From positions 2,733,001 through 2,797,000 of the forward strand of contig NC_134679.1 in NCBI RefSeq assembly GCF_024713945.1: 64,000 nucleotides of DNA. Direction: 5' to 3'. The stretch comes from Dermatophagoides farinae. Lineage: Eukaryota; Arthropoda; Arachnida; Sarcoptiformes; Pyroglyphidae. The position numbers and the translations under genes are program-made. The notes beneath the pieces were generated by a model. It was given only the letters and a program-made list of their open reading frames with translations, was not told the origin of the DNA and did not search any database. Positions 11,581 through 12,764 of this stretch are shown piece by piece. Position 1 is the first letter of the stretch. Each line of letters begins with the position of its first letter.

Positions 11581-11624
11581 TTTATTGTCTTTATTTAACC
11601 TTTCAGGAAAAATCTTTTTGACAT

Positions 11625-11986
11625 TCAATATCCCAGATAATGTTTGCATTCCGCATTAGGTCGTCGACCGCAAGTAGGAACTGGTTTTGTAAAAAGGAAC
11701 ATTTCTATCCATTCTAAAACACATGATGCATCTAATGATTTTCTCATGCAGTCGACGTATTTAATTGCACCAGTACCAAATTTTACAGTAAATTTTGCAA
11801 TATCGCTTATCCATGTAAAAATACTTTCAGAATCTGGACATTCGGGCATTGATGGCATTTCAGATTGGGCATGAGACATTGTAACCACCGCCATGGTCAA
11901 AGCCAATATTACGACTACGAAACCTATTAAAAAAAGTTTCAATTAATTTGAATTTTTTTTTGAAATGAACAAGTTATACCTTTCAT
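11625..11986 (-). CDS. Small secreted Cys-containing protein, copy 1 (101 residues)
   Basis: Exon 1 codes only ATGAAAG (11986-11980); a 56-nt intron (donor GTATAA, acceptor TTAATAG) follows; exon 2 runs 11923-11625. Splicing replaces the unspliced start and gives MKGFVVVILALTMAVVTMSHA, a clean signal peptide with cleavage expected after Ala21. The mature part is about 80 residues with five cysteines, including C-x8-C (DCMRKSLDASC), and ends ECKHYLGY. There is a TATA box 74 bp upstream of the ATG, and AATAAA signals on this strand lie at 11590-11595, 11581-11586 and 11555-11560. I recognise no family. It looks like an extracellular or gut/salivary effector-type protein, but function is unknown. 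It probably shares ancestry with copy 2, given identical gene structure and a similar Cys pattern. Confidence 0.75.
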
Positions 11987-12059
11987 TTTGATGGATTTTG
12001 ACGTTTGTTATAACTAGACAATCGAATTGAATGATTTTTAGTAATGGAATGGTCATGGT

Positions 12060-12066
12060 TTTTATA
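12060..12066 (-). promoter_or_regulatory. TATA box of secreted gene copy 1
   Basis: TATAAAA on the minus strand, with its near end 74 bp upstream of the start codon at 11986. A start of transcription about 30 bp downstream would leave a leader of roughly 45-50 nt. Confidence 0.6.
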
Positions 12067-12367
12067 GTCAATCCGACAATTCAAAATTGTCCATAAATGA
12101 TCATTGATCCATCATTATTAATCAAAAAAAATAATTAACTCTCTAATCTAATCAACAAAGGAAACATTGTATTGTCGTAGGAAGTCCAATTTTCCTGACA
12201 AGAGTTATATTTTTAGTAGCGATGTATTTTTTCTATTGTTGCTAACGGGAAAAAAAATTAAAATTTTGATATTTTTCATTAGAATTATGTTCAAATTATC
12301 ATCAAAAATTTTTTTAATTATTTCTTCCAAAAGTTTTCAATTCAATTTCTTTACATTCACAATAATT

Positions 12368-12671
12368 CTATTCAATTATTGCACATTGAGCAAAACTTAA
12401 TTCAGCACATTTCAAAGTTTTAAAACATTTCAATGGATTCGTTAGAAGAAGACATTTGTATGCAAGATCCAAACATTGATCACTTAAATGAACGGCTAAA
12501 CATTTGAAAAAATTGGCCACAACTTCAATTGGACTTGGTATAGCATTAATGGTGCCTGACCATGGCATTATTAATGCCAACATCAAAAACATCAAAACGG
12601 TCAAATCTATGAAAAAAAACGATGATGATTAGTGAATTATATATAAGATAAAATATTCTCTTACTTTTCAT
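12368..12671 (-). CDS. Small secreted Cys-rich protein, copy 2 (81 residues)
   Basis: Exon 1 codes only ATGAAAA (12671-12665); a 58-nt intron (donor GTAAGA, acceptor TTTCATAG) follows; exon 2 runs 12606-12368. The spliced start MKNLTVLMFLMLALIMPW is a signal peptide, probably cut after NA at residue 24. The mature chain is about 57 residues with six cysteines: C-x8-C-x6-C-x8-C-x5-C-x7-C. It ends SFAQCAIIE at a TAG. A TATA box lies 87 bp upstream. The start of copy 1 is 381 bp beyond its stop, on the same strand. The first C-x8-C and the TNPLKC / TKPVPTC segment align with copy 1, suggesting an old tandem duplication. Function unknown. Confidence 0.75.
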
Positions 12672-12757
12672 TTTGAAGTTTTTCAAAGATGAATCTTTTC
12701 AGAATTTTTTCAGGATCGCTAAATAAAAATTAAAAATATCACCAATTGTTTGTGTGT

Positions 12758-12764
12758 TTTTATA
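12758..12764 (-). promoter_or_regulatory. TATA box of secreted gene copy 2
   Basis: TATAAAA on the minus strand (context TTGGTATAAAAACAC). Its near end is 87 bp upstream of the ATG at 12671, matching the arrangement of copy 1. Confidence 0.6.

Follow-up and report, generated by a model that had tools for sequence, protein, structure and literature searches.

The Drosophila glue genes Sgs1, Sgs3, Sgs7 and Sgs8 have two coding exons separated by a short phase-1 intron within the signal peptide; in the sections of the study used here, the Sgs1 intron is given as 50-71 bases and coding exon 1 as 28 bases in Sgs1 and 19-28 bases in Sgs3 (PMC10835880). The same sections describe the Sgs7 and Sgs8 products as small and the glue genes as duplicated, with repeats nearby (PMC10835880). 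Mosquito genes for CPR cuticular proteins carry a TATA box and a coding exon 1 of 3-36 bases (median and mode 12); in the excerpts on which we rely, 86% of the intron-bearing genes have an intron in the signal peptide region, which results in these short first coding exons, and the short first exon is named as an obstacle to annotation (PMC2259329). There, 96% of the introns of RR-2 genes are in phase 0, and the mature CPR proteins are almost without cysteine (PMC2259329). The aphid bicycle genes are described, in the part of that paper at hand, as so divergent that gene structure reveals relatives where sequence fails (PMC9168663), and an extract on the mite Psoroptes ovis reports a DFP2-like multigene family of 81 genes with co-located members and unknown function (PMC6806590).

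Here we describe two neighbouring genes, g1 and g2, in a window of 64,000 nucleotides (the whole stretch of DNA that was analysed) from the mite Dermatophagoides farinae. We put at about 0.75 the probability that they are part of a family that comprises at least eight genes and encodes small secreted proteins, predicted to be helical, with up to three disulfides. As far as the published extracts go, this family is like the glue genes in its two coding exons, short phase-1 leader intron, multiple copies and nearby repeats, and unlike them in the length of exon 1 (7 bases against 19-28); the likeness is one of gene layout, not of sequence. The glue-gene intron falls at residue 10 of the signal peptide, whereas that of the window genes, likewise in phase 1 and in the leader, falls at residue 3. 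With the extracted description of the CPR genes the mite family shares the TATA box and a very short coding exon 1 before a leader intron, but it is phase-1 and Cys-rich and has no R&R domain match. As is reported in part for the bicycle genes, one mite member (g3) was found through gene structure. Bicycle genes have many micro-exons and CYC motifs, whereas the mite genes have two coding exons and encode a six-Cys framework predicted to be helical. The DFP2-like genes, compared from their partial description and not by sequence, resemble the family in being a mite multigene group with co-located members, of 81 genes as against 8.

Gene anatomy of the window genes

The minus strand carries two complete gene models at 11625..12764, with the following parts:

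12758..12764, minus strand: TATA box TATAAAA of g2, starting 93 bases 5' of the ATG
12665..12671, minus strand: coding exon 1 of g2, ATGAAAA
12607..12664, minus strand: phase-1 intron of g2, 58 bases, GTAAGA..CATAG
12368..12606, minus strand: exon 2 of g2, with the remainder of the signal peptide, a mature chain whose 6 Cys follow the family framework exactly, and TAG; best of 5076 ORFs with the g3-g8 profile
12060..12066, minus strand: TATA box TATAAAA of g1, starting 80 bases 5' of the ATG
11980..11986, minus strand: coding exon 1 of g1, ATGAAAG (Met-Lys plus one base), of the same length in 7 of the 8 family members
11924..11979, minus strand: phase-1 intron of g1, 56 bases, GTATAA..AATAG; unspliced, it gives an in-frame stop
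11625..11923, minus strand: exon 2 of g1, with the remainder of the signal peptide, a mature chain with 5 Cys, and TGA; second-best of 5076 ORFs with the g3-g8 profile
11590..11595, minus strand: AATAAA, 29 bases past the g1 stop

Both genes thus present the same order of parts, namely TATAAAA, CAAA-ATG (the context CAAAATG is common to the two), seven coding bases, a GT-AG phase-1 intron, a signal peptide and a Cys-rich mature chain, and their products would be 101 aa (g1) and 81 aa (g2) long. The first-pass annotation had proposed an exon 1 holding only ATGAAA plus one base, and this is what we read at 11986-11980 and 12671-12665. Its phase-1 introns of 56-58 nt, followed by a predicted signal peptide, were likewise found, and the TATAAAA that it placed 74-87 bp upstream lies at the same sites, with gaps to the ATG of 73 (g1) and 86 (g2) bases in our slightly different counting. 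It had also held that the start is misread without splicing; indeed, the unspliced reading terminates after 15 codons in g1 and continues for 41 codons in a different frame in g2. Secretion was judged by eye from the leader sequences, and cleavage was placed by eye after residue 21 in g1 and residue 24 in g2.

The term micro-exon, used in the same annotation, fits only the coding part of exon 1. Since the TATA box lies 80-93 bases before the ATG, exon 1 of both genes must also hold a 5' UTR, perhaps 50-60 bases long, and the seven bases would be the short coding portion of a normal first exon rather than a micro-exon for the spliceosome.

The layout was also sought in the window and 100 kb on each side (264 kb), by scanning for an exon 1 of 4-21 bases, a short intron and a hydrophobic start under a low-complexity filter. 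Among the models listed, at many places, g1 and g2 are the only ones with a 7-base exon 1. TATAAA was found within 130 bases at two other places (window-relative -96177/-96174 on the plus strand and 99244 on the minus strand), where exon 1 has at least 9 bases.

Relatives found through their gene starts

Searching the genome by tblastn with the g1 or g2 protein, as the first-pass annotation had suggested for finding further copies, gave no additional gene with matches allowed up to E 10; six more genes came instead from the start pattern and from searches led by g3. The start signature CAAAATGAAANGTRN{30,60}TTTNNNAG occurs at 4 distinct sites in the whole 62.4-Mb assembly (5 rows, against 1 for the control): g1, g2, C3:330459 and C7:101340. 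The last opens no credible ORF (42 aa), while at C3:330459 we read a gene, g3, with TATAAA, ATGAAAA, a 68-base intron, a leader and seven Cys. A tblastn search with g3 as query then matched g4 at 49% identity and g5, g6 and g8 at 33-35%. The members reached from g3 are:

C3:327186: g4, by tblastn with g3
C3:1401389: g5, by tblastn with g3
C3:1402250: g6, by tblastn with g3
C3:1402957 (ATG): g7, read in the DNA beside g6, then confirmed by search
C1:4161499-4161744, minus strand: g8, by tblastn with g3

Genome searches with g4, g5, g7 and g8 gave no ninth gene, and g1 and g2 are missing from the results of all five outside queries (these four and g3). The family therefore has at least eight genes: the pair in the window and six members in three other places, a pair at C3:0.33 Mb, a triplet at C3:1.40 Mb and a single gene on C1.

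When the start pattern was relaxed to AAAATGAARNGTRN{30,60}TTTNNNAG, it matched 16 distinct sites in 17 rows, as against 23 control rows, and so was not enriched over the control. Four of these sites are family members (g1, g2, g3 and g6); we read all 12 others and found that, with introns of 40-109 bases, none opens an ORF of more than 52 aa. Each of the four sites that lead into a credible gene is a family member. Gene start anatomy alone had thus yielded a relative, g3, that tblastn with either window protein had missed, and we suggest such a search as a cheap aid to completing mite secretomes. Some of the allergens met by hosts and people are small proteins secreted by astigmatid mites. 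A family of this kind could easily be overlooked by gene finders, and families missed both by these and by similarity search would be absent from mite allergen lists.

Shared features of the eight genes

The same first exon, expected by the first-pass annotation in any further copies, is present in seven of the eight members, with phase-1 introns of 56-74 bases. Its sequence is ATGAAAG in g1, g5 and g6, ATGAAAA in g2, g3 and g4, and ATGCGAG in g7. In g8, the sole member off contig C3, the whole leader lies in one exon, which may reflect either intron loss or a different start. TATAAA is found 80-128 bases before the ATG in six members and is absent in g7 and g8.

Homologues with a conserved Cys pattern were found within the mite's own genome. 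The framework C-x8-C-x6-C-x8-C-x5-C-x7-9-C is present in all members except g1 (7/8); five of them (g2, g3, g4, g5 and g7) have it exactly, with a final x7, and in g6 and g8 it ends with x8 or x9. A single one of 5076 background ORFs contains the framework, and this is g2 itself. A profile built from g3-g8, without the window genes, ranked the g2 ORF first (E 5.2e-6) and the g1 ORF second (E 0.0067), the next having E 0.1; the best reversed ORF scored 9.2 bits as compared with 14.6 for g1. With g2 added to the profile, the g1 ORF reached E 0.0023, and the next 0.081.

It had been proposed that g1 and g2 are paralogues in an undescribed secreted family, partly on the likeness of their mature chains. 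The proposal gains support from the six other members found in this genome, the common Cys framework and the profile built without the pair; the chain likeness on its own is not significant, since a score as high is reached in 848 of 5000 shuffles, so that paralogy cannot rest on the pair alone. That figure also fits another explanation, namely that a 7-base first exon is simply common among arthropod genes for secreted proteins and that g1 and g2 are unrelated genes, neighbours by chance. In the portion cited, mosquito cuticle genes do commonly have a signal peptide interrupted after a short first coding exon of 3-36 bases (PMC2259329), the glue-gene extract places an intron in the Drosophila signal peptide (PMC10835880), and single-protein searches never connect either window gene to the other six. 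We nevertheless find this explanation improbable, as the profile of those six ranks both g1 and g2, and as the relaxed start pattern, at the 12 of its 16 sites outside the family, opens no ORF above 52 aa. Membership in the family, which we prefer, is judged firm for g2, and for g1 there is a good case in a modest profile score (E 0.0067) taken together with gene anatomy. The link of the pair to the other six would accordingly lie in profile and anatomy, single-protein searches giving none.

Predicted structure and the variant g1

Of the six framework cysteines, the g1 protein retains C1, C2, C5 and C6 but not C3 or C4, and its C2-C5 interval is shorter by five residues. The C-x8-C noted earlier as common to both mature chains is present in each. 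A shared T(K/N)P..C segment had also been pointed out, and its likeness is visible, but the Cys that follows T(K/N)P falls in different columns of the family alignment (C5 in g1, C4 in g2).

AlphaFold, run on alignments of two sequences only, predicted an all-helical fold for both proteins, with a mean pLDDT of 79.5 for g1 (the five models ranging from 79.5 down to 47.8) and 72.7 for g2 (72.7 down to 58.3). The g2 model has an extra short third helix at residues 36-42 which carries C4 and has no counterpart in g1, where it is deleted. Since g1 lacks both C3 and C4, along with five residues around the C4 helix of g2, the two cysteines may well pair with each other. The odd number of Cys in four members (g1, g3, g4 and g8) fits three disulfides less well, unless the proteins dimerise.

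A leader, a helical prediction and six Cys would also suit divergent relatives of the insect odorant-binding proteins or of another known helical six-Cys carrier, and the weak matches in the fold search with g1 include honeybee ASP1 (rank 17 of 38, E 7.7). The C2-C3 spacing of insect odorant-binding proteins is x3, but it is x6 in all seven mite members that have C3; no member has a Pfam match below E 0.02 and the fold search returned weak rows only. We consider such an origin very unlikely.

Divergence between members

Core identity is 20% between g1 and g2 and 20-27% between either of them and the other members. Because they are no closer to each other than to the rest, g1 and g2 are, as far as their sequences tell, old neighbours and not fresh duplicates; their substitutions are saturated. 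Whole-gene estimates (NG86) are dN 0.153 and dS 0.311 for g5/g6, and dN 0.343 and dS 0.431 for g3/g4.

In g3/g4, 119 of 134 aligned sites match in the 5' 150 bases and 64 of 68 in the intron, compared with 155 of 228 in the mature coding part (dN 0.393, dS 0.523). The leader part (22 codons) has a dN of 0.193, not below its dS of 0.172. Promoter, exon 1 and intron together make up an island from about 100 bases before to 90 after the ATG (in L033 and L034), with about 90-96% identity per 50 bases; upstream it is flanked by poorly alignable DNA except for a second block near -300. The g5/g6 pair is without this contrast between 5' and coding parts (upstream 108/143, intron 53/65, coding 319/390). 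As dS is also high in the mature part, the g3/g4 pattern is easier to see as conversion or constraint of a 5' cassette than as positive selection alone.

The sequence shared at the 5' end of g3 and g4 also bears on whether the proposed splicing is used at all. Translation might instead begin elsewhere, in g2 from an in-frame ATG in exon 2 (MFLMLALIMPWSG...), which would still yield a usable leader, and in g1 from an unseen upstream exon; g8, with its whole leader in one exon, offers a parallel. On the other hand, the next in-frame ATG of g1 leaves a short leader, seven genes share a 7-base exon 1 with a GT donor after it, and the g3/g4 intron and 5' region match as if they had been kept. Moreover, in the six genes with TATAAA every ATG between the TATA and the proposed start lies at most 20 bases from the TATA, before the expected transcription start. 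We regard such alternative starts as quite improbable, and retain the spliced 7-base start.

A bolder and tentative reading of the g3/g4 island is that this undescribed mite secreted family, with a new helical three-disulfide scaffold, is built as a 5' cassette while the mature chain diverges. The cassette would comprise promoter, 7-base leader exon, intron and signal peptide, held near-identical between duplicates by gene conversion or selection. If this were true, its layout would be that of fast-diversifying effector or venom families.

The repeat array just 3' of g4 (L034 1860-2091) has inverted copies 5' of g3 (L033 701-931), up to 89% identical, and so these inverted repeats lie between the two genes.

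Searches for known relatives and likely role

Searching Pfam-A with the eight members gave nothing below E 0.02. At E up to 10 six families were matched, each by one member only; PF00379 (the R&R consensus) is not among them, nor is there any chitin-binding match, and the scores of the g1, g2 and g3 matches are under the curated cut-off. Toxin_7 (PF05980), matched by g2 at 12.7 bits (E 0.16) where 27 bits are required, was rejected. A sequence search of the PDB returned nothing credible for the family and nothing significant for g1 and g2; matches of g3 to designed repeat proteins, with low E-values, were set aside as compositional. Fold searches gave weak rows only, with no credible match, and we noticed no description of the family in the literature. 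The protein family appears to be new within the libraries searched (Pfam-A and PDB), whereas the 7-base exon layout is of a known kind; the novelty lies in the family and not in the exon, as very short first coding exons have precedents among arthropod genes for secreted proteins.

From these features we picture a TATA promoter that would start the transcript some 50-60 bases before the ATG, and a first exon that would end after the ATG, the second codon and one base. Removal of the short phase-1 intron would join exon 2 and set the frame for the full signal peptide, whereupon the protein would enter the secretory pathway and lose its leader. The mature chain may then fold into a short helical bundle in which the six cysteines (C-x8-C-x6-C-x8-C-x5-C-x7-C) pair. 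The family is most likely lineage-specific, its products small, helical, disulfide-bonded secreted proteins, and their likely role would be that of an extracellular protein of a gland or epithelium meeting host, microbes or mates, with quick diversification.

The products could alternatively be structural secretions, such as glue, silk or cuticle lining, instead of defence or host-facing proteins. Two coding exons, a short phase-1 signal-peptide intron, several copies and nearby repeats recall the layout of Sgs7 and Sgs8, so far as the extract covers it (PMC10835880). Repeats adjoin both g4 and g3, and the end of g7 is near a run of Gln. However, g1 and g2 have no low-complexity part and are predicted to fold as helices, a chitin-binding Pfam match is lacking, and the glue motif IRXC[L/V]C occurs in none of the eight members (0/8). 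A structural role therefore strikes us as unlikely, though as a serious contender, and we favour the diversifying extracellular role.

Other features of the window and genome

A 42-base minisatellite occupies 527-1047 of the window, with 9.6 copies at 527-935 and 2.1 more at 957-1047, and part of it reads as a repetitive minus-strand ORF. The segment 5001-8750 of the window contains an ORF of 1249 residues in which Asn, Ser and Gln abound; towards its end, inspection by eye suggests a CCCH zinc finger. Elsewhere in the genome, the Der p 2 / NPC2 lipid-binding family (PF02221) has seven exon matches (L024-L030); the exon with the best family score, L024, is similar to Der p 2 and to Der f 2, yet is neither of them.
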